Source: Chalara sp. BL73 (Eukaryota > Ascomycota > Leotiomycetes > Helotiales). Taken from it: 64,000 nt of DNA. The stretch spans positions 1,674,001-1,738,000 of the forward strand of contig CAKJVC010000012.1 of NCBI GenBank assembly GCA_918026815.1, written 5' to 3'. Numbering within the stretch: the stretch's first letter is position 1; each line of letters begins with the position of its first letter. The notes beneath the pieces were generated by a model. It saw only the letters and a program-made list of their open reading frames with translations. It was not told where the DNA came from and did no database searches. Shown one piece after another: positions 18,881-59,704 of the stretch. Both the position numbers and the translations under genes were made by a program.

Positions 18881-18900
18881 TTTCTATAATCACCACATCG

Positions 18901-30787: not shown

Positions 30788-31047
30788 TGTAACGACGCAA
30801 GGAATCACTGGCTAGAATAGAGGTATATGGGAGTGCGTACAATAGGCTGATAGTGATTGCCTTATAGGTCTAAAGTACTAAGGATACAAAAACATGAGGA
30901 GCAACTGTAGAGAATAGGAACAGGCCTTTATATAGGCGACTCCGACTCTCCCCCGTATTGGGTCTGAAACCCCTCATATCCTGATCATCACCCCTTGCTC
31001 CTGTATCATGACCTCCGTGCCGTGCCCTGGGCATACCGATTGTTACA
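30788..31047 (+). repeat. Solo LTR, family E (260 bp)
   Basis: TGTAACGACGCAAGG...ACCGATTGTTACA with a perfect TSD TTTAC (30783-30787, 31048-31052). Confidence 0.94.
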
Positions 31048-35796: not shown

Positions 35797-37002
35797 TTAG
35801 GAGCCAAAACTTGAATCTGCTGCTTGGAAAGCATCCATAGTAGCCATGCTGATTGCGGGATATGACATAATCTTATCATGAAGCCCAAAATCCAAGATTC
35901 TCTCCCTGATAAGACCCTTGCTCGTTCGCCATTCCATAGACCACCCACCGTCTCCCAGATCAACCCTTTTCTGATTCTTCTCCTGTTCAAGATCCTCATA
36001 ACTGATCCCAGTAGATAGCGCAGCGTTGACTGCATGCCAGAAAAGAACTTCAGTATGGGTCCACGGAATATCTGCATCGTCCCGCGCGTGGATAAAAGTG
36101 ATGTGGTATTTTGAATCATTGCTTTCTCGCTCCTCGAGTTGGATGAACTCAGATATCCGATCTTTACTCAGCCACGTACTTTTCATGAAACTTTGAAAGA
36201 ATGCGAGAAGTCGAGGCGAGATTGCGAGTGGTGAAAGCACGGGAATAACACCACCTATGCGATATGTTGCGGTCAAAGTAGCGACGTCGGAGAACGAAGC
36301 CACGAATAGAATTCCAGAAAAGTTGATGGGAGAAGGCAACCTAGCAAGGTGGCCTATAAGTGACATGCCCACTGCAGTCCCCAAGGACTGCGCAAAGAGA
36401 ACGATGCGTGAATCTGGGATGCCAGCAACATTAATAGCCCAGTCAGTAAGAGCCATTGCATCTAAAAGTAATCCTTCTTCAGAAGGTGTACCACTGCTAA
36501 GCCCATAGCCGCGATAGTCGATCGTGACAACATGGATCTTATCCGGTGCGCAAGAGTATAGAGCTCTGTAGTTGTCGGGCCTCCATCCTGAGCCTATACT
36601 GCCGGCCGTGCCATGTAAATAAATGACAAGCCGAGCTTCTGGGTCGTCTCGCAAAAGCTTAAAATTAAGTCTTGAGGTGATATCGTGAGTAAAACCAGAT
36701 AACTGAGCTAAGAGCTCTTTCTCATGTCTTCTATACAATCCTATAGGGAGAACGTGCCATGCATGTAGTGATACCCCATCCGGAGTGGGGATAGAGAATG
36801 TAGTGACCTGGTTGCGAAGAAAGCCGAAAGTTTCAGGCACATTCAAATCTCTAAACCAAGTCAGAGTAATGCGGTGGAGGTAGAATGCGTGGGTTTGAAG
36901 AGTAGGAAATGTAGCTACGAGGCCGAGGAGGCTGATATAAACTCCCACTGGGATGGCGAGGGAAAGGAAGGCGATCTTGAGGAGTGCCATTTCGACAGGC
37001 AT
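35797..37002 (-). CDS. Alpha/beta hydrolase, ABHD12/Bem46-like, membrane-anchored
   Basis: 401 residues from an ATG at 37002. An N-terminal hydrophobic segment (ALLKIAFLSLAIPVGVYISL, about 6-25) probably anchors it in a membrane. The hydrolase fold shows the oxyanion block YLHGTAGSIGSGWRP, YRGYGLSSG, the nucleophile elbow VLFAQSLGTAVG (catalytic Ser), an acid in HARDDADIPW and a His in GLHDKIMSYP. Family members hydrolyse lipid esters (lysophospholipids or acylglycerols); the substrate here is unknown. No stop or frameshift, normal length, so probably functional. This is one of few intact host genes in the window. Confidence 0.88.
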   Translation of the reverse strand: MPVEMALLKIAFLSLAIPVGVYISLLGLVATFPTLQTHAFYLHRITLTWFRDLNVPETFGFLRNQVTTFSIPTPDGVSLHAWHVLPIGLYRRHEKELLAQLSGFTHDITSRLNFKLLRDDPEARLVIYLHGTAGSIGSGWRPDNYRALYSCAPDKIHVVTIDYRGYGLSSGTPSEEGLLLDAMALTDWAINVAGIPDSRIVLFAQSLGTAVGMSLIGHLARLPSPINFSGILFVASFSDVATLTATYRIGGVIPVLSPLAISPRLLAFFQSFMKSTWLSKDRISEFIQLEERESNDSKYHITFIHARDDADIPWTHTEVLFWHAVNAALSTGISYEDLEQEKNQKRVDLGDGGWSMEWRTSKGLIRERILDFGLHDKIMSYPAISMATMDAFQAADSSFGS

Positions 37003-37340
37003 TATGGTATCGGATGAAAATCCCTTGGCTTTTATTAGATACAGAGTGAGGTTTGTCGTGATGAGCTTTGCGATGTGAAGTGTTGGAGGTTTGGGATGCG
37101 ACGTAGAAAGTGCTGAAAGTTAGGCCACGCTTAGGCTAGTAGTACAGGCCGGCCACTAAGTACAGGCGCTTAAGACCCTGCCAAAAAGCTTGTCTTGGCT
37201 CTAACTTGATACTCCAGATAACTGTACCGTGAACAGTTCCCAGTATTTCAATTACATAAATCAATTATTTTCCTTACCCTGTGCTACACGAAGCCAGGAG
37301 ACAGTAGAGGACAATATACTCAGTTCGATTCTATATGCTA
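37003..37340. other. Intergenic region
   Basis: Upstream of the hydrolase gene; nothing else recognised. Confidence 0.4.
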
Positions 37341-38389: not shown

Positions 38390-39303
38390 CGAGAGTCCCC
38401 ATAAATCCCGATCAGTCCATCGTATCCAGTGAACGAGTTAGTATCGTAGTATTTAGTAATATCGAGTCTCGAGACATATGAGATCGACTTTTTGATACTA
38501 CGCTAGTATTAGTATGAGATATCTTGTAGAGCGCTAGTATTAGTATGGAAATCGGATCTCATATCATATTGGCAATAATACTAAATACCGTGCCAAGGCT
38601 AGTTAGTCAGCTGAAATGCGGCTCTGCAGCTAAAACGTACCTAAATTATCGAGAATTTTCTGCTACCTGTCATCACCAACCTCCTTTTTTTCATCACAAC
38701 ACCATCACCAATATTTCTTTTTCTTTCCTTAAACGCCACTACGAGGGTTCCTGATACAATTAGAAACAAAAACCATGCTATAAAAAGGGTTATACAAGGT
38801 AGCCGGCTCGCGGAAAGGCTTCCTAGGCAATAAAGTTGTTGAGCTACCATGGTTCTTGAAGCGCCAACGACTTTACGGAAATGAAAATCGACAATATTAC
38901 CAGGTCCTGAACTTTTCGGCGTCTTAGGAATTCGGAAATATGTCGATTTTAAGTGTGAAATAGCTTATATTTGGAAATATTATGCCGTCGACGGGTCGAA
39001 GTGGAAATGAGGCTGTTACAGTGCATTTTGCTATAAGCATCAAGCTTGCAACTATTGCCTTTTTTGGTGCGAATAAACGATTTTAAGCAGTTGGAAACCC
39101 GGGCGATAATGATAGATCTTTGGAGTAACGCGCGGCATAGCTGATTCGAGTTTCGAGAAGTAAAAGATTCTCGTAGCCTTGTAAATTGGCTTTGTTTTTG
39201 GTGATTTTAAGAAACGCGAGCTGATTCTGTTAAGTATAAAATCTCGACCTTTCCTTTCTCTCAATTCAGTATTGCACTTTTTGTATTATCGAATATCCTT
39301 CAG
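38390..39303. other. Non-coding stretch, 5' flank of the hAT element
   Basis: 38440-38600 is AT-rich with short direct repeats (GCTAGTATTAGTATG twice). The 5' end of the hAT transposon should lie here, but I could not place a terminal repeat or an 8-bp TSD. Confidence 0.4.
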
Positions 39304-40174
39304 TATGTCGTTTTCAGAATCATTACTTAATTGCCTTTTCGATCATGCTCGAATTGAGCAAATCGAGAAGGATAAAGCGTTAGCAAAAGACTTTCAAAAG
39401 AATCAAGCTTCATAGAATGAAACGATGTCAATCGCTTTTAGTAAAGAACTTACAAAAGATATTACTCCTGACCCATTTGCAGCTTCTTTTACTACTAATA
39501 GTAAGCTGGAGGTAAAAGAATCTGCGACATTAATCGCAACTTCTTTTGCCAGCTCTCAGTCAGCTTTTGCAACCGACGATTGTGAACTTGATAATAAACG
39601 CAGTTCTAACGTATACAATCATCAACTTAATCCAAATCCTCAATTTGTACACCGCGACGACAAAAGCAGAAAAGTGTAGTTGTGTATGCATTGCAAAAAA
39701 GCGTACAAAGTGACAGGAAGCACTAAAATCATTCGGTCGCACCTTTTGATCGCTCACGACATCCACAGCGATTCTATGCGCTAAACAAAGCTGAAAAAGG
39801 TTCGAGAAGCAATTGAAGATGCGATGAAAAAAGCTGCGAACTCAAGTAACGTTATTGCAATTGTATTTTATTTGTTTTGGTGTTGTAGTTAATTGAATTG
39901 ACTAAATCGAACTGACGATAGCGGGGTAAATCGAAATGTTTTGCCAAGACTTTACTTCGCACTAGTCCTATTTCGTCACGAAAACCACTTCAACACCACA
40001 TACTAATTCCTTTACAATTGACTATGCTAATTTGTACTTTATTATAGAAGCTTATAAACGACGTCGAATTGCTTTAGAATCCGAAATTCCTTCAAACGAA
40101 CCTCGAATCGATCCTCATGTTCTAGAAATACTAGTTGTTAAATGGGTGGCGGCTGCATCGATATCCTTGAATTT
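39304..40174 (+). pseudogene. hAT transposase, N-terminal segment (BED finger)
   Basis: Begins ATG 39304 (MSFSESLLNCLFDHARI). After a frame change at 39425 it reads to a BED-type zinc finger, LCMHCKKAYKVTGSTKIIRS then HLLIAHD, with a TAG in place of the Trp just before it. An intron-like gap follows, then YKRRRIALESEIP...VVKWVAAASISLN. The reading continues, after removing the LTR at 40175-40639 and undoing the inversion, in the segment at 46633-47281. Confidence 0.78.
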
Positions 40175-40639
40175 TGTAACAAATAGAGGGCAACAGGAGG
40201 GATTGCAATATAACAGGTAAGAACACGTGACTGCAATGTAGTAGAAATAGTGATGTATTGATATCAAAAGGATGCTTGTCAGTCCAGAAGATAAACTCAA
40301 GCTTGCTTTCCTCCTGAAAGCTCTAGCTGTTCCTTATATCCTTCCAGTGGTTCTGTAGCAGTCAGCCTGTAGCTGCTGTAGCTGTATGCCTGCTGTAGCT
40401 GTATGCCTATGGCTGCTGTAGCTGTATGCCTGTGGCTGCTGTAGCTGTACGCCTGTGGCTGCTGTAGCTGTATGGCTGCTGTAGCTGTATGCCTATGGCT
40501 GCTGTAGCTGTATGCCTATGGCTGCTGTAGCTGTATGCCTGTGGCTGCTGTAGCTGCATGCTTGTGGCTGCTCAGGATGGAGCATGCCGCTTGCGGCCCT
40601 TCAGCTCCTATCCGTCTCTAACCGGCTCTGGCTGTTACA
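40175..40639 (-). repeat. Solo LTR, family B (465 bp), left partner of the large inversion
   Basis: TGTAACAAATAG...CTCTGGCTGTTACA with about nine copies of the GTAGCTGTATGCCTGTGGCT minisatellite unit. Flanks AATTT (left) and GTGGC (right) do not match each other. They match, reverse-complemented, the flanks of the opposite LTR at 47282-47809 (AAATT, GCCAC). Confidence 0.93.
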
Positions 40640-40736
40640 GTGGCGTCGTGGAATAGTCTTCACGGTCTTGATTCAATACAAAAAAAAGAGATATTATTAA
40701 GCTCCGTCCCCGGAAGGTTTGTAGAGTTTGTTCTAA
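40640..40736 (-). other. Gypsy leader fragment (part of the plus-strand gypsy copy, inverted)
   Basis: Matches 58438-58525 of the intact gypsy leader. Its continuation starts at 47810 on the other strand. The two pieces join exactly when the segment 40640-47281 is flipped. Confidence 0.88.
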
Positions 40737-40827
40737 TGTAACAACTCAAGCTGCACAAGGATCTCGATCCGTGGATCTAGGTAGAAAGATGCAAAAGTGT
40801 GAACAACTATCAATTGTTATAACTAAG

Positions 40828-41021
40828 TGTTGGTATCACGGGCTTACCTTCCACGGGGCAAAAGGCGCAGCTCTACTTTGTAGGCCACGCTCTTGCTCTT
40901 GATGGATATGGTAATGATTGTTGTTGTATTAGGTTCTACTCTAGATTCTACAAAATGGGGGTTGTGCGGACCACGTGACCTGGTGGGTTATACGCGGATC
41001 CGTAAACCCCTACTTCCTACA
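40828..41021 (-). repeat. Copia 3' LTR (194 bp)
   Basis: TGTTGGTATCACGGG...CCCTACTTCCTACA on the plus strand. Confidence 0.95.
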
Positions 41022-41130
41022 CTGGAGGCTCTCTAAAAGGCCGTAAGCTATCTAAAAGAGCCGTACAGGTCCGTAAGGTTGTTCCGTAGAATCTGTATTA
41101 GCTCGTGAGTAGAGCCCAATACTACTTCCC

Positions 41131-44100
41131 TTATATCTCTTCACGTTCTACCCATTCCATGACCTTCAGCTCGAGGTGGTTTGAATCAATCAGCTGTTTT
41201 AGGGCTGTTGAGGCTTTACTTTTGGTCATAGAATCGGCAGGGTTGCTGTTGCCGTCGATTCACCTAACTTCCGTGATTTCCCTTCTCTTATATGACTGGC
41301 GGAGGCACATGATATCTATTATAAGCCTCTTCTTTTGAGTGGTTCCTAATTTGACGAGGCACTCGTAGAGGGATTTGGAATTCGTGCAAATAATCAGGGG
41401 TAAGTCGATCTTCAGGATAAGCTCGATCGACGACTTGAGTGTGGCTCTAATATCAAATCTATGGCCTATAGCGTAAAGCTCGGAAGCTAGTACGCTTCGG
41501 GTTACTCGTTTGCACTTAGTTGACGACTAATGGAGCACGTTGGCCTTGTTCGTAGCATCAGCTAGTACGATTACGTAGCCGATTTGTGATGATAAGTTTT
41601 TATTGTTAGCAAAACTTGCGTCCGTAAAAACGATCAAGCGGAGGGTTTTCGGATCTAGCGGAACGTAATTCAAGCTTCTGGCAGAGTTCTCGAGTTGCTA
41701 TTGGAGACGCTTGTTTAGGGCTGTAACGTCAGCTTTCTTAGGGTTGGTTACTTGGGCAGCACAGGATAGGTCAAAGGATGCTTCAGGCTGGCACATTAAA
41801 GCTATATAGGCTCCTCTAGCTCGTTGAGCCACGTATTGATCGTAAAGAGAAAGGCTAGTTCGGGTGATGCCTCTAGAGCTTGTTGCGGAGGTTGGCTTTT
41901 CACTTACGGTTACTAGGTTGTTGCACTGATTTTCTTGATTGACCGTAATAGTGCCTTCGTCCGTAAGGTGTATTGTGCACCCGTTGAATTTCATTGGTTG
42001 ACCGACAGTGAGGTGTTTTCGTTTTTTTGCGAGGAATTGGGCTTTTTCGAGCTGTTGCTGTTCAGCTGTTGCAAAAGAGCTATCAGCCAAGAAAAGGGTA
42101 TTATCAGTTTGCAAGCCTACAAGGCCAAAGGAATCGGCGTTTCGATATAGTAAGCACGGGTCGTAGGTCGAAAGGTTCATTTCTAAGTCTTTGACGTGGT
42201 GATTGTAATACGTCTTGAACCAGTGATTGCCGGCCTCTGGCACTCCGTAGAGAGGCTTTACGACCCGTAGGATTTCGCCTGGCTGTAGGTTTAGCTCCGT
42301 AAAGAGCTCTTGCGGGGGATTGATATAGAAGTCACGGTTCAGCTTCGTGACTGACTGAACGTAAGCCTGGGATATATCTCTCAAATAGAGCTTAATATCA
42401 GAGCTTTGCATGATCGCCGTAATACAGAGGATTAAACGTTGGCTCATCCGCTGAATTGTCGGTGATTGGGTAAGAACGATATCTTTTTCGTGATCGTTGT
42501 AGGCTTGAACAACTAAACGGGATTTTTCGTAGGCTTTGGTGGTGCTTTGATTCTTGATTTCGTCGACAAACCTTGAGTTGAATATGCGAATTCCTGAAGG
42601 AACGTTCTTTCGTGAAATAGTTTCAAATACGCCTTTTTCGAGAAGGCCGAGGATCTTTTTGTTACGGGATTCCTTGAACTGGTTCTCGGCCTGGGGAAGC
42701 TTTGATTGGAGGTGAATCACCACGTTAGCTGTAGCGTGGTGTTTACGGGGTCGGCCTGGGCCTCGTCGAATAGGCTGTTGCAAAGGGATCTGCGGTTCTG
42801 TAGCAGCAGGGATCTCTACAGTGATAGAGTCGCCGGTGATAGGGTCGCTAATAGCTTCAATAGCGTCTGGTTCCTCGTTGTTAGTAGCTGGTTTTTCAGG
42901 ATCTTTGCGAGTGAGGTAAGGCTTGACGCTTGTGCTACGGAAGGTTACAGGGCCGTTAGGCAGGGCTAGCACGCAGTTTTTTCTTTCTAGGCTGATAAGC
43001 TTAAATGGGCCTGACCAAAAGCCTGGCTGGCCTGTATTGCTTTCTCTCCACACTAGCACTTCAGAATTCAAGGGGAGGCCGTGAACAGCGGTCGTACTAG
43101 GGCCGTTACGGGCCTGTAGTGCGTCGGCGACCTGGCGTTTTGCCCGTAGTTTTTGAATCTCTTCCTGGGCCTTTTTCAGGGCCGTAGATCGTTGGCTGAC
43201 TGACGGGGAAGGTGCATTTAGTTCGGTTATGCGTGGATAGGCTCCGAAAACTAGTAGGGTAAGTACGATTCCGTTGGGGCCTGCGGAGTCGTTGATTGCT
43301 TTAAAGGTTATTTGAAGAGCGATATCTTTGTCGATTTCAGGGATCTCGGCAGTAATGATCTTGTAGATCCGGCGTACAAGAGCATGATAGCGTTCGGCCT
43401 TGCCGATCGAATGATGGGCCTCTACAGGAACAGCTTTAGTTGTAGAACCGACGTTAGCAGCGTATTGACGGAATTCTTTGCTGACGAAGTTTTTTCCTGC
43501 GTCGTGAGCTATAATATCGGGTGGGCCTAAATAGCTGTCAATCCAGTATGCTCGTAGGCTTTCCCAGGTGTGCTTTGCCGACAGGTTCTGAAGCCAACGG
43601 CCGGCCTGAAAAGCCGTAGCTTCGTCGACGACGTGTAAAAGGGGATCACCGTCGACATACATTATATCGACGATTACGCAATAATTGAACTCCACGTCGT
43701 TTTTGAGAGTAAACTTGAACCGGCCGGGAGATTTGCCGTGCTTTTGACAGTGATGGCAATAGCGAGTGATTTGCTCTAGCACGCTCTGGTTGTCGTTATG
43801 GCCGGCTCTCTCTAGTATTTGCTTTAGGCGATTTGCGGAAGGGTGGCCAAACCGCCGGTGGAGGCGTCGTAGTTCGACCTCTGTTAAATAGCAAGGGTTC
43901 AGGTCGAAGCTACGGGTGAGATACAGGCTCAACGAGGTGTTCCAAAGCATGAAAGGGTGTCCGTAACGTCTCACAACTGGAACGCTCTTTTGTGGAGTAA
44001 CTAGAACGTTGGTAAGGTTGTTGTAGTAAGCGTTCAGTCGATCAAGGTCGGCCAAACAAAGGAGGAATGGGGTATCGACCTCTACAACATGAAAGTCGAC

Positions 44101-46065
44101 TAGGCCAATCGGGGTTTCCACGGTGATCGAGCCTATCGACGAGGTTGATCCGATACCGAATTGGACGTTGACCATTCCTTTAGTTGATCTGTCGAGCTTC
44201 AGGGTCGTTGATTTGCTCAGGGCGACGTATTGGCCATAGCCAGCTGTTGATCGCTGAGAAGCACCTGTATCTATCATGATTCCTACAAATTCGGAGGAAG
44301 TGTAACGCGAACCCGCTTTGTAGGCAAACGGGTTGTTTTCGGTGAGGTTGCTGTTGTTGTCCGTGACGTCAAGCTTGGTGATAGCGTGATTGCACGCTCT
44401 ATTGGCTAGCTCGATAGCGGTGGTTGCGGCGCTATCGAAGTCGACGTCGCCATACGCCGTAAAGTTGACTACAGTCAGCTTGTTGTCAGGGTCGTCGGCG
44501 GTAGGCTTGTTGTCGGTGATGAGAGCTGTGAACGCTTCCTCTAGCTCATTGCCGAGATCCTCGTAGTTATCGCCTTCGTATTCCACGAGGTATTGACGGA
44601 AGCGTTCAGAGAATCCTGGGGCTTTTGTGTATCGGGATCCTAGCTGAGCCTGGAGCTTCGCTTTGGCTTGTTCTTGCTTCTTTCCAGGGTGATTCCATGA
44701 GCGGCAGTCTTCTTTATTGCAGACGTAGCAACGATTTGATCTTGAGGGTCGTTGGCTACGGCTTCTTTGGTAATCCGCAAAAGCACGGCCACGGTTGTAG
44801 GATCTACCAACCGGGCCACTTCGGTAGTATCTACGGTCCGTGAAATACGCGTCTTGCTCCGTAAAGTAGGCCGTAGATTGGTTCTCTCTTTCGTGGGCTA
44901 GAATTGATGATTTCAGCTTGTTGATAAAAGAGCCTAGAGTCTCTGATGGTTCTGGCATAGCGTATTTACAGGAGGGTACTCCCTGGCAGGCCATTACGAG
45001 CTTGTTATGGAGGAAAGCTATTCCACGGAGATCTGGAGTCAGACTGTGTTGTAAATTGCTCAGTTTTTCGACCAGGATATTAATGCAGTCTACGGTTGAT
45101 TTTTCGGGGTTCTTTTTGATCACTACTTCGAGGCTTGTTATGTTCCATTCATGAAGCTTTTGACGGCTGTATGCTGGGCCTTCGAAGAAGCCACGGATAT
45201 CCCTGATAGCTTGCTCGAACGTGCCTTTAGTCGGTAGGACAGCCGTGTAGTAGTGGCTTAAAGCAGTTTCTTTAAGGATACAGGGGAAAGCTCTGAGGTA
45301 GGCCTGCTGAGGAACCTCCGCGCGGTAGCAAAGGTCGTAAAAAATCGTTATGTGGAAATCGAAAGCAGAGCCAGTTCCGTCGTACTTTTGGTTATCCGTA
45401 ATCATTTTTGTGAGGTTTGCGATTTCTTTGCTATAGCCCGTAACATGCCCGTTAGCCACGGAGCCTGTAGCGCTGGAAAAAGGGGTGTGGGCTGGTTTCG
45501 GAAGGAGAAGACCGGTGTCATTAGCTTGATTTTGAGGGCCTATAGAACGTCGAAAAGGGGAGTTGGAGCGTGATGGAGGATTACGGTTCTCGACTTCAGG
45601 AGCGCGAGGGGTCGGTGGTTGCTCGCGGGCGGCACGGGCTATGATTGTATTGACATGTATGGAGCCGAAGCTATCTTCTCCTATTTCCTCCTGAACTTGA
45701 CGGATTTCGTCGAGAGTCCATTTATGACGTTCTTTTCTTTCTACACAATTATACAAAGCTTGTTCAAGAGTCATATCTTCCGTAATTGGCTCGAGGAAAA
45801 CTCCTTGCCGAAGGAGTAGCCATGCTAAGTCGCGGGTGTAACGCTTCTTTATTTCCGTGACTCGTTCAAATAGGTCGACTGTAAAGGCCTTGAATTCCTT
45901 GCGGAAATAGGCCCGTAGATCCTCATCTATATCATTGTGGTATTCATATTCCATGACTTTGTATTTGACAAATTCGGCCACTTTCTCGATAGGGGCTGCT
46001 GTTAGGTCGACCTTGTGGTTTTCCCACTTTTTCTCCAGCTTTAAGTGCTCACTGGATGGGGCCAT
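41131..46065 (-). pseudogene. Copia Gag-Pol polyprotein, stops in RNase H
   Basis: ATG at 46065 (MAPSSEHLKLEKKW); frame open to 41698. Order: Gag-like N-terminus; Cys/His motif CYVCNKEDCRSWNH; protease MIDTGASQRSTAGYGQ; integrase with HHCC (HRRFGHPSANRL...CHHCQKH) and core D/D/E (VDIMYVDGDP, AHDAGKNFVS, HHSIGKAERYH); reverse transcriptase (NSRFVDEIKN, DISQAYVQS, PLYGVPEAGNHW, LQTDNTLFLAD). The RT active site reads TDN where copia elements usually have DD. The RNase H region 41131-41697 is recognisable (FTDASFANNKNLSSQIGYV, LASELYAIG). It is broken by three stops in the place of Trp codons, plus TNS where TDS is usual. Confidence 0.92.
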
Positions 46066-46236
46066 GTTGGCAGAGGTGTTCGGTGCTTGTATGGGGTTTT
46101 GATTGGTGTTACGGGCCGTCAAGCAGGTGCTGTCGTGTTACCTGGGCTGCACGAGGCCGTAAAGGTGGGATTCGCGAATAGGGGTGATTTTGTTTGTAAT
46201 AAGTAGGTAAGAGTGGTTTTGATCTGCGCTGATCAG

Positions 46237-46430
46237 TGTTGGTATCACGGGCTTACCTTCCACGGGGCAAAAGGCGCAGCTCTACTTTGTAGGCCACGCT
46301 CTTGCTCTTGATGGATATGGTAATGATTGTTGTTGTATTAGGTTCTACTCTAGATTCTACAAAATGGGGGTTGTGCGGACCACGTGACCTGGTGGGTCAT
46401 ACGCGGATCCGTAAACCCCTACTTCCTACA
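46237..46430 (-). repeat. Copia 5' LTR (194 bp)
   Basis: Nearly identical to 40828-41021, followed by the CTAAG duplication. Confidence 0.95.
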
Positions 46431-46632
46431 CTAAGAAAACAAACTACAGGCAGAAGAAAGTAAGGAGAGCAGTGCTTTATATACAGGATGCTGGCCAGGG
46501 GCCAGTGTAAGCGAGCCCTGTAGCGTTGGTTGCCAAGCTCTGAGGTGCCGAGCCCTGTGGTAACAGGGGCCAAGCTCTACCGAGCTCTGCAGTGCTTGGC
46601 GCCAAGCTCGAGATAGGGCCAGGGCCGTGACA

Positions 46633-47281
46633 CCAACAAGCGTTGTTAGCTAGAGCGAGAATATCGTCGATAGAATCCTCAGCGGCGGTATGAAGGAAAG
46701 ACTGACTAGCCAGGTTGATAATATGACTCTGGCAGCGAATTCGATGAATTTTAAAGTCTTAATCTTTGCTGTATTTCTCATGAATAACTGCAAAAGTCAG
46801 TAGGAAAGCCTATTATTTTACAGAAAAAAAAAAGCGTTGAAAAAACCTTACTTTCGCTCATTTCGCGCATTATAACATTTATCGATGAAGCGTTGTCAGT
46901 TACTACAAAACCGAGCTTATAAAAGCTATTAAATACTTTCCAATCCTTTAAACGTTTAACAACGTGTAAAGCAAGATTTCGGCCTGTATAAGCACTAATT
47001 ATCTCATCCAAACTAAGAAGAATGCGGTCGTATTTGCTGTCGAAAATACCGTAGCAAATAATGACTAAAGTAGGTATGCTGTTAGGTGACGACTACGCGT
47101 CAGTTGTAATATGGATTTTTGACTGACAACGAGCAATTCTTTTTAATTAAGCTTTTTGTTGCTTTTCTAACATGCGATCAACTCATTTTTTTATTGTATA
47201 GCCCGTAGTAGAGAGATAAGCTGTCGCATGAGGATTGAGGTATTGTAAAATCGATCGGAATTCGTTGCTCTCCACCAAATT
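46633..47281 (-). pseudogene. hAT transposase, middle segment (inverted)
   Basis: Read from 47281 downward: LVESNEFRSILQYLNPHATA, then a stop, RMLEKQQKA, CQSKIHITTDA (first catalytic D region), LDEIISAYTGRNLALHVVKR, FYKLGFVVTDNASSINVIMR (second D region), an intron, then DFKIHRIRCQSHIINLASQS and DDILALANNACW. It joins the N-terminal segment at the AATTT site after flipping 40640-47281. The next part is at 51838 on the plus strand. Confidence 0.82.
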
Positions 47282-47809
47282 TGTAACAGCCAGAGCCGGT
47301 TAGAGACGGATAGGAGCTGAAGGGCCGCAAGCGGCATGCTCCATCCTGAGCAGCCACAAGCATGCAGCTACAGCAGCCACAGGCATACAGCTACAGCAGC
47401 CATAGGCATACAGCTACAGCAGCCATAGGCATACAGCTACAGCAGGCATACAGCTACAGCAGCCACAGGCATACAGCTACAGCAGCCATAGGCATACAGC
47501 TACAGCAGCCATACAGCTACAGCAGCCACAGGCGTACAGCTACAGCAGCCACAGGCATACAGCTACAGCAGCCATAGGCATACAGCTACAGCAGGCATAC
47601 AGCTACAGCAGCTACAGGCTGACTGCTACAGAACCACTGGAAGGATATAAGGAACAGCTAGAGCTTTCAGGAGGAAAGCAAGCTTGAGTTTATCTTCTGG
47701 ACTGACAAGCATCCTTTTGATATCAATACATCACTATTTCTACTACATTGCAGTCACGTGTTCTTACCTGTTATATTGCAATCCCTCCTGTTGCCCTCTA
47801 TTTGTTACA
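47282..47809 (+). repeat. Solo LTR, family B (528 bp), right partner of the large inversion
   Basis: TGTAACAGCCAGAGCC...CTCTATTTGTTACA, inverted relative to 40175-40639 and longer by a few minisatellite units. Flanks AAATT and GCCAC cross-match with the left copy. Within gypsy this copy originally had the TSD GCCAC on both sides. Confidence 0.93.
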
Positions 47810-47965
47810 GCCACAGACGAGGTCTGTGAAGATATAGGCCAAAGTCAAAGCTTGTATACACTAACTCCAGCTCCTAGCACATACTGGTTGAGCCGCTCTT
47901 CCTAATTAGTCGAGTTGAGCTATTACTACTACTTTTCTTTATTTTCGAATCTACTTTACAGCAAT

Positions 47966-49288
47966 ATGCTCACGACAAAAAAGAAGCTCGTCGAGAAAGG
48001 ACAAGGAACGCTCTCCAGACTTCCTTCGACAGAAGGTACTCTTTTGGTTCAACTAGGCGACTGTACTACCCTTGAAGCAACGTTGTCAGCTGCTACTTTT
48101 GAGGAAATGAGCCGGTCGTCAGCTAGCAAGGAACTTGAAGGAGACGTACGCAATCAATTGAATCAGCAGGTGGCTGATGTTTTAGGGACCTCTGTTTAGC
48201 TTTCAAACAGCCAGCTTCGTGTGTTACTAGAACGGTTAGCGGCTACGGGACCAAGCAACTTAGTCTTTTTAGTGGAGAAACCTTCGACTTTTCGATCACT
48301 TCGGAAACAAGGAAATGACCTAGACGCGTTACTATCAGACAGCTTATCTTTTGATAGCAACTATAGGCCTAAGTCTAGTAGGCGGCATAAGTTTCGGCTA
48401 TACTCAAAAAAACTTTCTCCGAAGCACCGAGACCCAGACTCCTTAGACGACGGCACTTCGCTTACGTACATTGCTTGGAAATCTTTATTACGAGGAAAGC
48501 TTAGAGCAAATGCGGACTGGTGGCCTACGGAACAAGAACGGATCGATTACGTGTTCGGCTGTACTACAGGTGAAGCACAACGTTATTTTTCGCTTCGGTA
48601 TAACGAAGATAGCTTGGAACTTTGGCTTTCTGTCGACGAAATGCTAGCTTACTTGGACACAATTTTTCGGAACTATTTTGAAGCCGAAGAAGCCGAAAAC
48701 CAGTTTTACGCTTTGAAACAACAAGCTGCACAGGACTTCAATGATTTTTATACCGAGTTTGCTCGCTTAGCTGCTATAGGACGAGTTTCTTTTTCGACCT
48801 GGAGAAGCTATTTGTGGAGAAAGCTAAATAGAGAATTCTAGAACCGACTTTTGGCTACACACTATCAGCACTTTACGTACCAAAAACTAGTACACGAATG
48901 TTAACGGCTAAGTATCGACTTGCAGGAATTCTATCGACAATTTCTTTCTATACTAGCTCGTTAAGCTAGGCTAAATGCTGTTTCGACTTTTAAACGTCAA
49001 GAACTTTTTCCGGCTCCGAAAGCTTACCGAGTCTTTTCGCCAGTACTTCAGCGTGCTACTCCGGGCCCAGCTACAGGCCGTGACAGCACTTTTAGCTCAG
49101 CTCGTAGTCTAGCCCCGGATCTGTCTTAAAGCACTTGCTTCAAATGCGGTGAAAAAGGGCATTTTGCAAGCTTTTGCTTAAATTCTTAAGCAATACCTAG
49201 AATTCAGGAAATTGAGCAAGAAGAGGCTTCAGGTGATGAAGCACAAGATGAGGCCGACGCAGATGAGTCGGAAAACGAACAGCTTTAA
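47966..49288 (+). pseudogene. gag: Gypsy gag, multiple stops
   Basis: Same protein as 405-1739, read from ATG 47966 (MLTTKKK). TAG or TAA replaces Gln codons at several places (for example after GTSV near 48197 and at about 48838). The zinc knuckle region is still readable (SNAVKKGHFASFCLNS-like). It cannot make full Gag. Confidence 0.88.
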
Positions 49289-49311
49289 GCTAAGGCTCCT
49301 TTTTTAGGGCT

Positions 49312-51422
49312 TACGTGTTCGATTTTCAACAGATCGATTTAAGTTTACTGATGGCCGGCAATTCTTTTACTGTAGCATGCACTTTTCACAAAAACGGGAT
49401 TGCAGTGCAGACTAAAGCTTTAGGTGATACCGGAGCCAGTGGTTATGTTTTTATTGACACTCGTTTTGCATTAGACTTTTGCCGTATTCTCGGGTTGAAG
49501 CCTAGACGGCTTTTTTATTCTATTTATCCGAAAGGATACGATGGTAAAAAAGGATTTTTTATCTTTCAGTACTTTTTGTTCAATATTGAGATTGATGGCC
49601 GCCGGATCTATAACTTTTCTTTACCTATTTTAAAGCTGGGCTTTTATGATATGATTCTCGGACGCAATTTCTTTGATTATTTTCGGATTTTAATTGATGT
49701 TTATTATCGACAGCTACGGTGGCTTTCAGAGTTTCCACCAGTACATACCTATTCCAGGACTATAGCTACTTACTTAAGGGACAATATCCGACTTCAGCAA
49801 GTTCAAATACAATACTAGCAGGACATGCTACGCCGAGACAAAGCAATCGCTAGAAACGACAAAAGACGCCTGGACGGCATTCAGATTAAAGCCTTGACAG
49901 TAAGCTTAGTTCAGGCTCTGCCAGCGAGAGACTGTTTGCACGTTTAGGCCGTACAGGCTGTTCAGCAGCCAGCCGTACAGGCTGTTTAGCAGCCGGTCGT
50001 TTAGGCTATACAGCCAGCTGTTTAAGCTGTTCAGGCGGTTTATACTGTTCGAGAAGCTACAGCTAGCTAGAAGCTCGTTTCTCAGAAATCGAGCTTTGCT
50101 ACAGCTAGCCAGAAGCTCGTGCCCCAGAAATCGAGCTTTGCTACAGCTAGCCGGAAGCTTACCCGAGCTAGCGCTTACGGGCTAACCTGGGCTCGAGAAA
50201 CCAGCAAAAGCCTGAAAGTCATGGCTAGTGAGCTTTCTCGCTTTTACGACTACTAGCCTGAGGCCAAGCCAGAACTTCAGCCAGGAGGCTTCGCTAAAGC
50301 AGGGGGAAATAGCCGGCTTGACAGCCGGCCTGTCCAGCGTGCACACTTAGATATCAAAATGATTTCCAGTAACGGGTTTATGCTAAACGCTCGGCAACAA
50401 GGAATCGAGCTATTTTCAATTACGCTAGACGGCCTAGTGTAACAACTCAAGCTGCACAGGGATCTCGATCCGTGGATCTAGATAGAAGGATGCAAAGGTG
50501 TGAACAACTATCAATTGTTATAACTAAGAGAACAAACTACAGGCGGAAGAAGGGAAGGAGAGCAGTGCTTTATATACAGGATGCTGGCCAGGGGCCAGTG
50601 TAAGCGAGCCCTGTAGCGTTGGCTGCCAAGCTCTGAGGTGCCGAGCCCTGTGGTAACAGAGGCCAAGCTCTACCGAGCTCTGCAGTGCTTGGCGCCAAGC
50701 TCGAGATAGGGCCAGGGCCGTGACATCGAATGGACATAGACTGGGCTTGTTTTAAGGACTTTGTCTTAGTTTTACAGCATATTAAGGAAGCTCGGAAAGA
50801 TGCTTAAGCTTATATTAAAAAGATTCACGAAGCTTGGGAATGGGCTAAAACTAGAATGGCCGAAGCTTAAAAGCAACAAGCAATACAAGCTAACAAGCAC
50901 CGACGACTAGTCGACTTTAAAGTTAAAGACAAAGTGTGGGTTTCGACAAAAAACTGGACTAGCGAACGGCCAAGCCGAAAACTAGGCTACTAGAATGAAG
51001 GCCTATACGAAATCACTGAACAAGTAGGTTACTCGTATCGCTTAAAGCTTCCAGAAGGCAATCAGCTTTATAACGTTTTTGCACCGGAACTTTTGCGGAA
51101 AGACTTTGGTGACCCGCTACCAGGCCAGCATCAAGAGCCTCCAGTACCTGTAGTTTACAACTAACAACCGGAATGGGAAATCGAGCAAGTTTTGCAAAGC
51201 CGAAAGTACTGCCGAAAGCTTCAGTACCAGGTAAAATGGGTAGGCATAGATTACGACCCTGTATTTTATGATGCCGAAGGATTCAAAGGGGCGCTATACA
51301 AGCTGAAAGCTTTCCACAACGAGTACTTTAAAGCTAAAGGTTTTCCGGCAAATTTACAATACTGGCTTGATTGCTACTTGCAGGGCAAGGAACTAGCTGA
51401 TCGCCTGAATGACAATGGGTAA
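49312..51422 (+). pseudogene. pol: Gypsy pol: protease, then deletion, then integrase end and chromodomain
   Basis: Protease with DTGASGYVFIDTRF, then a linker with stops. The frame reaches ARQQGIELFSITLDGL and meets the LTR at 50438. After 50725 it resumes at RMDIDWACFKDFV (integrase end) and the chromodomain-like block EWEIEQVLQSRKY, LQYQVKWVGIDYDPVFY, ending LNDNG. About 2.5 kb present in the full copy is missing. Confidence 0.88.
50438..50725 (-). repeat. Gypsy LTR inside the decayed gypsy copy (288 bp)
   Basis: TGTAACAACTC...GGGCCGTGACA, opposite to the host element. Flanks CCTAG and TCGAA differ and belong to pol sites about 2.5 kb apart, so it marks a deletion between two LTR insertions. 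Confidence 0.93.
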
Positions 51423-51549
51423 AGCATGCTACGGAAGCCGGGAAGGTGGATTTTTTGATTTTTGATTTTTGATTTTTGATTTTTGATTTTTACATTCCAT
51501 TTTTGATCCGCCGTAGCTTGAGGGCAAGCTACACTGGAGGGGGGGGTAA

Positions 51550-51837
51550 TGTCACGGCCCTGGCTTTATTTCGAGCTTGGCGCTAAGCACTGCAGAGCTC
51601 GGTAGAGCTTGGCCCCTGTTACTACAGGGCTCGGCACTTCAGAGCTTGGCAACCAACGCTACAGGGCTCGCTTACACTGGCCTTTGGCCAGCATCCTGTA
51701 TATAAAGCACTGCTCTCCTTACCTTCTTCTGCCTGTAGTTTGTTCTCTTAGTTATAACAATTGATAGTTGTTCACACCTTTGCATCCTTCTACCTAGATC
51801 CACGGATCGAGATCCCTGTGCAGCTTGAGTTGTTACA
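51550..51837 (+). repeat. Gypsy 3' LTR (288 bp) of the plus copy
   Basis: TGTCACGGCCCTGGC...GAGTTGTTACA, preceded by a G-rich polypurine tract (GGAGGGGGGGG) and, further up, TTTTTGA repeats. The outer flank CAAAG does not match the outer flank GTTGG of the 5' LTR. Confidence 0.94.
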
Positions 51838-52170
51838 CAAAGTAAATTAAAACTAATCAAGTACAATAGTTACTAATTGTTCCTATTTTCAATTAGGTGG
51901 CATTCTCTTTTAAGAACGATCAAATCAATTTTATCACTTTATATTCGTGAAGCTTTACCCAAATTCTACAAAAAGCACCCCAGCGCAATTCCTTTTCCTG
52001 ATCGAATTACCAGCGACGATTACATTAAGCTAGAACGTATTGTAAAGTTCCTTCAGCCTCTCGAAAATGCTACTTTATTTACGGAATCACACAAAAGTAC
52101 TATTGAGAGATAGTTACCGAATTTGGAGTTCGTGATAGAGTGTTTTAAGAAAGGCAAAAAGCGCTATAAA
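51838..52170 (+). pseudogene. hAT transposase, segment before the second gypsy insertion
   Basis: Reads IRWHSLLRTIKSILSLYIRE, SAIPFPDRITSDDYIKLERI, FLQPLENATLF, one stop in the place of Trp, LPNLEFVIECFKKGKKRYK. It continues at 58814 after removal of the gypsy element. Some sequence between this and the middle segment is missing. Confidence 0.82.
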
Positions 52171-52458
52171 TGTAACAACTCAAGCTGCACAGGGATCTCG
52201 ATCCGTGGATCTAAGTAGAAGGATGCAAAGGTGTGAACAACTATCAATTGTTATAACTAAGAGAACAAACTACAGGCGGAAGAAGGGAAGGAGAGCAGTG
52301 CTTTATATACAGGATGCTGGCCAGGGGCCAGTGTAAGCGAGCCCTGTAGCGTTGGCTGCCAAGCTCTGAGGTGCCGAGCCCTGTGGTAACAGGGGCCAAG
52401 CTCTACCGAGCTCTGCAGTGCTTGGCGCCAAGCTCGAGATAGGGCCAGGGCCGTGACA
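52171..52458 (-). repeat. Gypsy 3' LTR (288 bp)
   Basis: Identical by eye to 58526-58813. The inner side has the C-rich complement of the polypurine tract. Confidence 0.96.
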
Positions 52459-52591
52459 TTACCCCCCCCTCCAGTGTAGCTTGCCCTCAAGCTACGGCGG
52501 ATCAAGAATGGAATGTAAAAATCAAAAATCAAAAATCAAAAATCAAAAATCAAAAATCAAAAATCCACTTTCCCGGCTTCCGTAGCATGCT

Positions 52592-55500
52592 TTACCCATT
52601 GTCATTCAGGCGATCAGCTGGTTCCTTGCCCTGCAAGTAGCAATCAAGCCAGTATTGTAGGTTTGCCGGAGGACCTTTTGCTTTAGGGTACTCGTCGTGG
52701 AAAGCCTTTAGCTTGTATGGCGCCCCTTTAAATCCTTCGGCATCATAAAATACAGGGTCGTAATCTATGCCTACCCATTTGACCTGGTACTGAAGCCTTC
52801 GGCGGTACTTTCGGCTTTGCAGAACTTGCTCGATTTCCCATTCCGGTTGTTGGTTGTAAACTACAGGTACTGGAGGCTCTTGATGCTGGCCTGGTAGCGG
52901 GTCGCCAGGGTCTTTCCGCAGGAGTTCCGGTGCAAAAACGTTGCGGAGCTGATTGCCTTCTGGAAGCTTTAGGCGGTACGAGTGACCTACTTGCTCAGTG
53001 ATTTCATATGGGCCTTCATTCTGGTAGCCTAGCTTTCGGCTTGGCCGTTCGCTGGTCCAGTTTTTGTCGAAACCCATACTTTATCCTTGACCTTAAAGTC
53101 AACTGGTCGTCGGTGCTTGTTGGCCTGTATTGCTTGTTGCTTTTGGGCTTTGGCCATTGCGGTTTTAGCCCATTCCCAAGCTTTGTGAATCCTTTCAATA
53201 TGAGCTCGAGCGTCTTTGCGAGCTTCTTTGACATGTTGTGAAACCGGAACAAAGTCTTTAGGGCGAACCCAGTCTATGTCCATTCGAGGTTGATACCCTA
53301 GTTCGACCATGAAAGATGACAAGCCTGTTGAGTGATGTGGCAAACTAGCTGCTGCGTAGTCTATCGCATGAATCAAAGTAGACCAGTTATCTTGAAAAGC
53401 ATTGGCAAAGGGACGAAGGCGTTGATCGATCCATTGATTTGCGTTTTCAGTCTGACCGTCTGTCTGAGGGTGGTATGCTGTCGAAAGCTTAAGCTTTGTG
53501 CCTAAAAGCCGGCAAAACTCATCCCAAAACGCGGAAATAAACTGAGGTCCTCGATCCGACACGATAGTTGTAGCAGGACCATAGTACTTATGGACATGCA
53601 CTAAATACAGCTGAGCCATAGTTCTAGCGTCGACTGTTTTGTTGCAAGGGATCGAAATAGGGCGTTTGCCGAGCCTGTCTATAAACACGCATACCATATT
53701 CATGCCTTTTTTGTCGAGAGGCATGTCTTTGAAATCAACTGATATATGCTGCCAAGGGCGGTCCGGTATTGGCAGTGAGTGCAACAGCCCTGGAGTCTTG
53801 TCTCTAGGGACTTTAGACCTACGGCAAGCGTGACAATTGCTTACAAAACGCTCAATATCGTCATCCATTCCGAGCCAGTAGTACCGTTCTTTAATCAGCT
53901 TTTTTGTCTTGTCTTGGCCTGGGTGAGCTGTAGCTAAGCTACAGTGTGATGCTGTAATCAAAGCAGTCCGTACTGATTCGGCTACTACAAGCCGGCTTTT
54001 CTTTCTTTAGCAACCCGTTTTCTAAGCTGTAGCCTCCTTTGCTTTCTTGACCTAGTTTTCTTGCAAGGTCTAAGTCTTGAGCAGTTCGGTTGGCCTGCAG
54101 GATTTCGTCGATCAAGTCGAGCTGTTCCTCAATTGGCGACAACGACAAAGCTACCCGGTTCACTTCGAGCTCTGCAGTGCTTAACGCTGAGCTCGTGTCG
54201 AGCTTTGCAGTGCCTGGCGCTGAGCTCATATCGAGCTTTGCAGTGCCTGGCACCGGGCTCATGTCGAGTTCTTGAAGGATCTGAGGATCAAGCTGTGCTG
54301 GGGATAAAAGAGCCTGATCTCGGTTCTCTCGCTTTGCTTGGTCCAAGCCTTTTGTCTGGTCTTGTCGTGTCAACGGGTCGGCTTTGTTGTGCTTGCCGGG
54401 CTTGTAAGATATTTTGAAATGGTACCGAGAAAGAATCTCAGCCCAACGGGCTTGTCTAGCTGATAGCAGCTTGCTCGACATGAAGTATTCTAAAGCTTTG
54501 TGGTCTGTAATTACCTCAATGTGATTTTTGGTGCCTTCGAGCTCGGCACGCCAATATTGCAACGCTTTAACAATAGCTAGCATTTCTTTGTCGTGAATTG
54601 GGTAATTGGTTTCCGCGGGAGCCATAGTTTTAGAGAAATACCCTACAGGATGCCATTCACCGTCAAGGCCTTTTTGAGAAAACACAGCTGCTACTACAGT
54701 GTCCGAAGCGTCCGTCTCCAGCATGCACTGACTGTCTAAATCGTAGTGAGCCAGCAAAGGAGCACTTATTAGCATAGCTTTGAGCTTGTCGAATGCTTGA
54801 GTACACTTGTTGTCGAAAACAAACTCGTAGTCAGCACGAGTCAACTGAGTTAGCGGTGCCGCAATCTGGCTGTAGCTTCGAATAAACCTTCTGTAGAAAT
54901 TGCAAAAACCTAGAAAAGATTGAACTCCTTTAACTGTCTTCGGAGGTTCCCAGTCTGCAATTACTCGTATTTTGTCTGGATCTACTTGGATGCCGTCAGT
55001 CGAAACAATGAATCCTAAGTACTTTGTCCGCTTTACACTGAATTCACACTTTTTGATATCGGCTTGTAAGCCGGCAGCTTGCAATCTGTCGATTACTTGC
55101 TTCACGTGTGCTTCGTGCTGTAGCTCGTTTTCAGAGTAAATAAGAATATCATCAAGATATGCTGTACAAATCACATCTAACAGATCTCGAAGAGTGTCGT
55201 TAATGTAGCTTTGAAACGTTGCCGGCCCATTAGTAAGGCCAAAAGGTAAAACTTTGTACTGAAACAAGCCATAGCGAGTGCGGAATGCTGTAAGTTCTTC
55301 AGATTCTGGAGAAATCCGGATCCGATGGAATGCCTGACGGATATCTAGCTTTGTAAAGACTTTGGCTTTGCTTAGCCTAGCTAGCGTTTCGTCAATCAAC
55401 GGCAAAGGATACCGGTTTTTCTTGGTTAACGAATTCAGTTTCCGGTAGTCGACACAAAAACGAAGTGAGCCGTCCGACTTCCGCGCAAACAAGACAGGTG

Positions 55501-56930
55501 ATGCAAAAGGAGCTTTGCTAGTAACAACAAAGCCTTTTCTCAAATTAGCTGTCAAGTAGTCTCGCATAGTTTCAAGCTCTTCGATTGAGTGCTTGTTCAA
55601 ATGGCAAAACCCTAGAGTATTGTCTCCCGTAAGCTCGATTTTGTGGTCGATGCTTCGGTGTGGAGCTAAAGTGTCTGATTCTTGCTTCGAGAAAAAAGCT
55701 AAGCGACTATGGTAAGTGCTCGGAATTTGGTTTTGCAAAGATTCTTCTAGCTCAACAGGCTGCTGTTCTTGCTTCCGATCTTCAATCATCCGGTCTAGGC
55801 CGTCTAACGTGATTGAAAATAGCTCGATTCCTTGTTGCCGAGCGTTTAGCATAAACCCGTTACTGGAAATCATTTTGATATCTAGGTGTGCACGCTGGCC
55901 AGGCCGGCTGTCAGGCCGGCTATTTCCCCCTGCTTTAGCGAAGCCTCCTGGCTGAAGTTCTGGCTTGGCCTCAGGCTGGTAGTCGTAAGGGCGAGAAAGC
56001 TCACTAGCCATGACTTTCAGGCTTTTGCTGGTTTCTCGAGCCCAGGTTGGCCCGTAAGCGCTAGCTCGGGTGAGCTTCCGGCTGGCTGTAGCAAAGCTCG
56101 ATTTCTGGGGCACGAGCTTCTGGCTAGCTGTAGCAAAGCTCGATTTCTGGGGGACGAGCTTCTGGCTAGCTGTAGCTTCTCGAACAGTATGAACCGCCTG
56201 AACAGCTTGAACAGCTGACTGTATGGCCTGAACGACCGGCTGCTGAACAGCCTGTACGGCTGGCTGCTGAACAGCCTGTACGGCCTGAACGTGCAAACAG
56301 TCCCTCGCTGGTAGAGCCTGAGCTAGGCTTACTGTCAGGGCTTTGATCTGAATGACGCCCAGGCGTCTTTTGTCGTTTCTAGCGATTGCTTTGTCTCGGC
56401 GTAGCATGTCCTGCTGGTATTGTATTTGAACTTGCTGAGGTCGGATATTGTCCCTTAAGTAAGTAGCTATAGTCCTGGAATAGGTGTGTGCTGGTGGAAA
56501 CTCTGGAGGCCACCGTAGCTGTAGATAATGAACATCAATAAAAATCCGAAAATAATAAAAGAAGTAGCGTCCGAGAATCAAGTCATGAGAGCCCAGCTCT
56601 AAAATAAGTAAAGGAAAGTTGTATAGCCCGCGGCCATCAATCTCAATATTGAACAAAAGGTACTGAGAGATAGGTGATCCTTTTTTACCATCTTTTCCTT
56701 TCGGATAGATAGAATGAGGAAGCCGTTTAGGCTTCAACCCGAGAATGCGGCAAAGGTCTAATGCAAAACGAGTGTCAATAAAAACCTAACCACTAGCTCC
56801 GGTATCACCTAAAGCTCTGGCCTGCACTGCAATCCCGTTTTTGTGAAGAGTGCATGCTACAGTAAAAGAATTGCCGGCCATTAGTGAACTTAGATCGATC
56901 TGTTGAAGATCGAACACGTGAGCCCTAAGA
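52592..56930 (-). pseudogene. pol: Gypsy Pol polyprotein, interrupted
   Basis: Domains in order: protease (DTGASG followed directly by TAG near 56787); reverse transcriptase (FCVDYRKLNSLTKKNRYPLP, FTKLDIRQAFHRIRI, LPFGLTNGPATFQ, active site TAYLDDILIYS); RNase H (LETDASDTVVAAVFSQ, VITDHKALEYF); integrase with zinc-binding N-terminus (HPGQDKTKKLIKERYYWLGM ... CHACRRSK) and core D/D/E (HISVDFKDMP, IVSDRGPQFIS, HPQTDGQTENANQW); and a C-terminal chromodomain-like part (PEWEIEQVLQSRKYRRRLQY). Frameshifts lie near 53996 and near 53065 (five A where the plus copy has six). Confidence 0.93.
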
Positions 56931-56943
56931 AAGGAGCCTTGGC

Positions 56944-58277: not shown

Positions 58278-58525
58278 ATTGCTGTAAAGTGAATTCGAAA
58301 ATAAAGAGAAGTAGTAGTAATAGCTCAACTCGACTAATTAGGAGGAGCGGCTCGACCAGTATGTGCTGGGAGCTGGAGTTGGTGTATACAGGCTTTGACT
58401 CTGGCCTATATCTTCACAGACCTCGTCTGTGGCGTCGTGGAATGGTCTTCACGGTCTTGATTCAATACAAAAGGAAGGGATATTATTAAGCTCCGTCCCC
58501 GGAAGGTTTGTAGAGTTTGTTCTAA

Positions 58526-58813
58526 TGTAACAACTCAAGCTGCACAGGGATCTCGATCCGTGGATCTAAGTAGAAGGATGCAAAGGTGTGAACAACTATC
58601 AATTGTTATAACTAAGAGAACAAACTACAGGCGGAAGAAGGGAAGGAGAGCAGTGCTTTATATACAGGATGCTGGCCAGGGGCCAGTGTAAGCGAGCCCT
58701 GTAGCGTTGGCTGCCAAGCTCTGAGGTGCCGAGCCCTGTGGTAACAGGGGCCAAGCTCTACCGAGCTCTGCAGTGCTTGGCGCCAAGCTCGAGATAGGGC
58801 CAGGGCCGTGACA
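58526..58813 (-). repeat. Gypsy 5' LTR (288 bp)
   Basis: TATATAA box. An AGTTTGTTCT block lies about 30 nt after it in element orientation; its complement AGAACAAACT occurs just behind the LTR in the leader, a possible self-priming pair. Confidence 0.95.
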
Positions 58814-59526: not shown

Positions 59527-59704
59527 GTGAGTGCTCGTGGTGTTTTAAAACGTGATACTAATTAGGAATAGCGTCATTTAGAGTTGGTGTCATAGTATAT
59601 CGCAGTATAGTATGATACAATATAAGATTGCAGATTTTGCTGTGATACGTATGCAAATTTCAAATCTCATATTGCGTGGTGTATGGTATTGTATTTTAGA
59701 GGTC
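59527..59704. other. 3' flank of the hAT element
   Basis: AT-rich, with repeated AGTATA-type words. A hAT terminal repeat should be near but could not be placed. Confidence 0.35.

Follow-up and report, generated by a model that had tools for sequence, protein, structure and literature searches.

Exchanged 5-bp duplications and sister copies point to a 6.6-kb inversion between identical family-B repeats in a transposon cluster of Chalara sp. BL73

In a 64,000-nucleotide stretch of the Chalara sp. BL73 genome (hereafter the window; positions 1674001-1738000 of contig CAKJVC010000012.1, here C9, within a 58.7-Mb assembly of 199 contigs), there is strong evidence that 6,642 bp of a nested transposon cluster, at window positions 40640-47281, lie inverted relative to the ancestral order. 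The segment is bounded by two oppositely oriented copies of a short repeat, family B, that is likely to be a solo long terminal repeat (LTR). One copy would originally have lain in a hAT transposon and the other in the leader of a gypsy element, and the original prediction of an inversion of about 6.6 kb between them is supported by the contiguity of paralogous sequence and by crossed duplications. The evidence is regarded as strong because it draws on other hAT and gypsy copies and not just on the two breakpoints. A single flip of 40640-47281 rejoins both the hAT and the gypsy ends, with no base lost or gained.

Both family-B copies start with TGTAACAAAT and finish with GGCTGTTACA. Read in the orientation of the repeat, copy 1 lies between AATTT and GTGGC and copy 2 between GTGGC and AATTT, so that the flanks are exchanged; the coordinates and the crossing given in the original prediction (40175-40639 and 47282-47809) were found to be exact. 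Such reciprocity is expected where two insertions of opposite orientation, which at first carried separate 5-bp duplications, have swapped flanks. Under equal base frequencies, the chance of a crossed 5-mer is approximately 1/1024 on each side, and by our own estimate approximately 1e-6 for both. For comparison, the genome was searched with a 30-base query from the family-B head, which gave 162 matches within 3 mismatches, 100 of them listed. The 106 heads examined comprise 91 of the 100 listed and 15 others, most of them in loci of about 1 kb, and flanks were counted for the 80 that have a recognised tail, with the 26 tailless heads excluded. Among these 80 two-ended copies, the window pair is the only one with exactly reciprocal flanks.

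The hAT breakpoint was analyzed by searching 38400-40174 and 46633-47281 separately against the genome and comparing their order in the copies matched by both. Eight hAT paralogs keep the two pieces head to tail, the second as its reverse complement, as flipping predicts. In five of these (loci L030-L033 and L040) the alignments of both pieces overlap at the target itself, and in L034-L036 the order and spacing are the same and the target lies where it is expected. A more distant paralog, L038, shows the same order with the target unaligned. The target reads AATGT or AATAT in the eight aligned paralogs and AATTT in both window copies, and this shared AATTT makes the two window duplications look like two copies of one site. 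Alignment of the uninverted order to hAT is in this way borne out by base-exact contiguity in paralogs beyond the window. As for the transposase frame that flipping had been said to restore, AAASISLN does continue in frame into (L)VESNEFRS across the junction, but stops soon follow. They lie near the junction in the second piece, at positions that are coding in four paralogs, and the flip therefore restores no working transposase.

At the gypsy breakpoint, GTGGC is read through without a break in the copies at 52171-58813 (58429-58433) and 1-2275 (1891-1895). The split copy has GTGGC twice, around the repeat; the part leading up to it is found from 47810 onward on the reverse strand, and the part from GTGGC on is found from 40640 onward. 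The flip sets the leader in the order seen in both other copies through GTGGC, as the original prediction had claimed for the first of them. As had also been proposed, the gypsy copy at 47810-51837 is the one to which the copia-split LTR belongs, but this copy is rearranged in other ways. Where approximately 2.5 kb should lie, from the part matching 53290 to the part matching 55795, there is instead an LTR of opposite sense (50438-50725), the outer flanks of the copy are unmatched, and 154 bp of hAT are gone at its insertion point. This LTR and the loss of hAT sequence look like another rearrangement, possibly a recombination between two gypsy insertions.

The two family-B copies are also identical. 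When aligned with one gap they agree at 465/465 bases, the sole difference being a 63-bp minisatellite block; the BLAST figure of 88% for this pair is misleading. Heads were compared over the first 185 bases in 77 copies of at least 240 bp (3 shorter ones among the 80 were excluded), giving 2,926 pairs with a median identity of 91.8%. The window pair is 100% identical and gapless, while the closest of the 75 other copies reaches 96.2%. Over the last 95 bases the nearest relative of the pair is 94.8% identical, with one 31-base partial match set aside, and the best other full-length match is 89% (40 candidates scored). Six further family-B pairs have no substitution in the head, but five of them have flanks in common and belong to duplicated or subtelomeric segments, and the sixth (C9:1544697 / C59:244924), in different surroundings, has 12 gap columns. 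Because of this head comparison and these six pairs, the identity of two independent family-B insertions is seen as unusual in this genome, and it is probably a consequence of the event. A search for gene-conversion tracts had been suggested; identity over the full aligned length points to homogenisation, although single-event alternatives can be set beside it.

To look beyond family B, inverted repeat pairs of at least 80 bp (E 1e-10, free ends) were taken without regard to family from 178,150 bases, made up of the window together with 28 loci that partly overlap. The resulting 86 pairs are inverted repeats of every kind, for which TG...CA ends, along with 5-bp flanks, were asked for afterwards. 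Two of the 86 have TG...CA ends with both flanks crossed, and both lie in the window: the family-B pair, and a 253-bp pair at 2604-2856 and 6834-7086 whose next genomic copy is 99% identical. The latter pair probably marks another inversion, some 4 kb long (2857-6833). Its repeat shares its ends with the LTRs of the gypsy copy at 52171-58813 and is identical to them at 206/253 bases overall and 143/160 over the first part; to judge by its sequence, it is very probably an LTR, a relative rather than a member of the same family. The identity of the family-B pair and this second exchanged-flank pair are additions to the original prediction.

Uncrossed inverted pairs are less alike. In the pair at 15608-15866 and 30788-31047, each copy has its own duplication (GTGTG and GTAAA), and the copies are 94.7% identical. 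Both copies have their own duplication in 4 of the 20 inverted family-B pairs that lie at most 12 kb apart and have all four ends read, and these four are 94.7, 90.8, 80.1 and 66.5% identical over their length. Both crossed window pairs are thus identical, as against at most 94.7% in the uncrossed inverted pairs examined, which hints, in a very small sample, that exchange and homogenisation go together. A further inverted family-B pair, C59:332809/333825, agrees at 308/311 bases with all three differences in the first 47, and ATCTC is crossed on one side. One insertion at this locus (L102, C59:332650-334100) is apparently in a gypsy-type LTR, and the locus may hold a further small inversion. 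A comparison of nearby inverted and direct family-B pairs (28 vs 12; head mean 0.85 vs 0.75) was not used, the low values being mostly truncated copies.

The nature of family B bears on how the inversion may have arisen. Its TG...CA ends and 5-bp duplication speak for the LTR assignment made in the original prediction, but a full-length element was not found in the loci examined, and the assignment is taken as likely only. Flanks of the 80 two-ended copies comprise 38 exact 5-bp duplications, 5 with one mismatch and 37 unmatched (more than one base). The target is weakly GTNAC-like (G 10, T 14, A 13 and C 12 of 31 sites at positions 1, 2, 4 and 5). The ends are inverted, with TGTAACA and then AGAG three bases further in at both ends. 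Head and tail pairs on one strand with matching flanks and a spacing of at most 9.5 kb, sought in the window and in the family-B loci examined, few of which exceeded 3 kb, revealed no full-length family-B LTR element. Five of the six longer stretches downstream of tailless heads have no tail with a matching flank, and the sixth (on C82) is a 483-bp family-B copy with a variant tail. The sequences flanking family-B copies, when compared, have no common internal region, and a transposase-coding relative was not found among the copies examined. A 2,069-bp candidate for a full-length element, C59:80849, turned out to be a family-B copy interrupted by a pogo-like element, which has inverted ends of its own. 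In seven copies the last 12-14 tail bases are repeated in tandem.

Two other candidates for reciprocal flanks were rejected. C5:643464 and C9:1544697 are reciprocal but for one mismatch; the flanks of C9:1544697 match a repeated unit at three other places, where CCTGT stands on both sides, and C9:1544697 itself is without the second duplication. In the near-reciprocal pair C3:1807360 / C4:504, C3:1807360 has its own matching duplication. At another locus (L098, C9:1837540-1840800), a family-B copy is apparently broken after about 23 bases by a gypsy-type LTR. The rest of the copy lies inverted 1.5 kb away, with GCAAG at both outer ends, perhaps as the result of an LTR-associated inversion.

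The explanation that we favour, and consider likely, is ectopic recombination between the inverted family-B copies, with gene conversion homogenising them, in an exchange of the flip/flop type. A family-B copy would have inserted in hAT, duplicating AATTT, and a second, independent copy would have inserted in the opposite orientation in the leader of a gypsy element nested in the same hAT, duplicating GTGGC. Ectopic homologous recombination inside the repeats would then have inverted the 6,642 bp and swapped the outer flanks. We infer that gene conversion, at the exchange or over repeated exchanges, rendered both repeats identical, and a later change of repeat number in the internal minisatellite may have left the 63-bp difference. 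Recombination with conversion is favoured because the ends, duplication and target of family B are LTR-like, because no transposase-coding relative was found among the copies examined, and because the 253-bp pair, very probably of LTRs, shows the same identity.

Several points weigh against this interpretation. The data are from one assembly, which shows one orientation only; the uninserted hAT and gypsy counterparts are paralogous rather than allelic sequence, and no uninverted allele was found in searches of the assembly with the hAT pieces. No fully crossed pair was found outside the window in the loci scanned, and C59:332809/333825 is uncrossed on its other side (ATGCC vs AGTTG). The copies of C80:116681/117587 are 98.9% identical over the head and have no recognised tails, so that their flanks are uninformative; as far as tested, crossed pairs are not alone in being highly identical. 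The absence of a full-length family-B element in a limited search is a weak point. Finally, the identity of copies 1 and 2 over 465 bases leaves no variant to show a chimeric switch. According to the Galileo study, the duplications are exchanged in both cases, while ectopic recombination leaves chimeric copies and hybrid element insertion leaves identical ones (PMC2775673). By that criterion alone, the window pair would point to hybrid insertion.

The same recombination may have taken place without conversion, if both copies came fresh from one source, were identical on landing, and recombined because they were identical. Recombination is known to prefer identical copies, and family B looks partly recent, since an exact match to the 30-base query is found in 54 of the 100 listed heads. 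However, no third copy closely similar to the pair was found, either over the full length among the 40 candidates scored or over the head among the 77 copies compared, and the only other substitution-free head pair in different surroundings has the gap columns noted above. This explanation is considered unlikely.

For hybrid element insertion, family B would have to be a short transposon of the cut-and-paste kind. Ends belonging to two sister copies of one element would have inserted together at a second site, a single step that both inverts the segment and produces two identical copies whose duplications are exchanged. The hybrid model, as set out in the Galileo study (PMC2775673), predicts just this combination of identity and exchange, and both the inverted ends of family B and the lack of a full-length LTR element in the loci examined would suit it. 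The LTR-like features of family B argue in the other direction, as does the absence of a transposase-coding relative among the copies examined; the one long copy with coding sequence holds the nested pogo-like element already described. In addition, the gypsy-type LTR pair is equally identical, and the hybrid model is very unlikely to apply there; if that pair is an LTR, its identity cannot stem from hybrid insertion. Taken together, this origin appears improbable. An assembly artefact, in which a wrong path was taken between identical inverted repeats at a locus that is not inverted or that exists in both orientations in the culture, is likewise improbable: identical inverted repeats, such as these of 465 bp, are typical places for errors of this kind, and another such pair is present in the window, but there is no N in the window or in 262,617 bases of examined loci, and a 3.0-Mb contig running through nested repeats suggests long reads able to span 7.6 kb.

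Table 1. Positions of the repeats, element pieces and inverted segment in the window
Feature	Position	Strand	Remarks
Gypsy-type solo LTR, companion pair	2604-2856	-	Exchanged flanks
Partner solo LTR, companion pair	6834-7086	+	253/253 identical; flanks exchanged AATTT/ATTCT
hAT left piece	38427-40174	+	Ends in duplication AATTT (40170-40174); 96-91% identical to L030-L034
Family-B copy 1	40175-40639, 465 bp	+	TG...CA ends, probable solo LTR; flanks AATTT left, GTGGC right
Inverted segment	40640-47281, 6642 bp	.	Both ends contiguous with paralogous sequence only when flipped
Gypsy leader piece	40640-40736	-	Begins with duplication GTGGC; 40640-40827 vs 58429-58616 at 95.7%
Gypsy 5' LTR split by copia	40737-46632	-	40737-40827 + 46430-46632 match gypsy LTRs; outer end 46632
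Copia element	40828-46430	-	LTRs 99.5% identical; 5-bp duplication CTAAG; RVT_2 match in frame 41701-46137
hAT second piece	46633-47281	-	Ends in AAATT (reverse complement of AATTT); 95-92% to L042-L045
Family-B copy 2	47282-47809, 528 bp	-	Copy 1 plus one extra 63-bp repeat block; flanks exchanged
Gypsy copy, gag side	47810-50437	+	Begins GCCAC (reverse complement of GTGGC); matches 58433-55795, 92%
Gypsy-type LTR	50438-50725	.	Lies across missing 2.5 kb of gypsy copy; flanks CCTAG/TCGAA unmatched
Gypsy copy 3' end and 3' LTR (51550-51837)	50726-51837	+	50723-51837 matches 53290-52171, 91%
hAT third piece	51838-52170	+	Preceded by loss of 154 bp of hAT
Gypsy copy	52171-58813	-	Both LTRs identical; duplication ATAAA; inserted in hAT; unbroken through GTGGC
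hAT fourth piece	58814-59712	+	hAT C-terminal dimerisation domain; after gypsy with duplication ATAAA

The split gypsy copy (47810-51837, 40640-40827 and 46433-46632) also differs from the copy at 52171-58813 by a one-sided substitution bias, with 191 C>T against 35 G>A changes in the gypsy sense. The context of the C>T changes is CA and CT in about equal measure, with CG least. Repeat-induced point mutation usually affects both strands, and a one-strand C>T bias departs from this usual pattern. The gypsy pieces that lie within the inverted segment are biased in the same way when read in the gypsy sense (10 to 1), so the bias either is older than the inversion or depends on the strand of the element itself. 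In hAT, C>T or G>A changes found only in the window number 19 in 333 columns (51838-52170) and 21 in 648 columns (46633-47281) next to the gypsy copy, and the outer hAT pieces have fewer such changes for their length (27 in 1730 and 17 in 888 columns). The hAT pieces next to the gypsy copy have an excess of G>A in the hAT sense, 17 to 2 in 51838-52170 and 15 to 6 in 46633-47281, on the strand opposite to the bias of the intervening gypsy copy.

An insertion of about 420 bp near the right end of hAT (59713-60132) has inverted ends around CGGGTACGATTGAAACGG and probably represents a short, non-coding DNA transposon. Self-comparison showed long internal tandem-repeat arrays at 18878-21339 and 3589-4611, which are possibly repeat-domain genes. 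The minus-strand gene at 35797-37119 encodes a protein with alpha/beta hydrolase domains, whose closest relative from a named organism is from Bisporella (84%), followed by other ascomycetes at 66% or less.

The case in the window, an inversion in a filamentous fungus, is resolved to the base between short mobile-element repeats, and sister copies from the same genome allow the order before the flip to be read. A single assembly is enough to look for exchanged duplications, which makes the rate of flips, and the question whether flipped pairs are always homogenised, testable without relatives. A broader and more speculative idea, possible but on balance doubtful, is that short inverted LTR pairs in this fungus act as flip/flop switches, in which continued exchange keeps the copies identical and the segments occur in both orientations. 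One feature of such a system, inverted repeats more alike than expected, is seen in both crossed window pairs. If the idea were true, swapped duplications would tag each flip, and two identical pairs in 64 kb would make such switches common in its transposon clusters.

Inversion by way of mobile-element copies is a class of event that is already known. P and Ac/Ds elements are examples of hybrid element insertion or reversed-ends transposition. As in the present case, that process gives an inversion with two copies, expected to be identical, and exchanged duplications (PMC2775673), but it needs a cut-and-paste transposase, and no sign of one was found in the family-B copies examined. The Galileo inversions 2j, 2q7 and 2z3 of Drosophila buzzatii likewise have opposite copies at the breakpoints with exchanged duplications, and a single target in uninserted sequence without loss or gain (PMC2775673). 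Galileo is a DNA transposon whose 2z3 copies are chimeric, and the variant switch in those copies proved ectopic recombination, whereas the family-B copies are identical and probably solo LTRs. The Galileo inversions are natural chromosomal polymorphisms (PMC2775673), while the present one spans 6.6 kb within a nested transposon cluster and its uninserted counterparts are paralogs.

The flip/flop region of Saccharomyces chromosome XIV is similar in that an inversion lies between inverted repeats kept alike by conversion; there, conversion homogenises the repeats and crossing over is occasional (PMC9731477). The yeast repeats are 4.2 kb long, bear genes, occur genus-wide and are found in both orientations among strains, while those in the window are short mobile-element repeats in one assembly. 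In Mycosphaerella fijiensis, elements with differing flanks were likewise read as the result of ectopic recombination (PMC3562529). That report counted 125 retrotransposons whose flanks differ, whereas the window holds one event resolved to the base, with both partners known.

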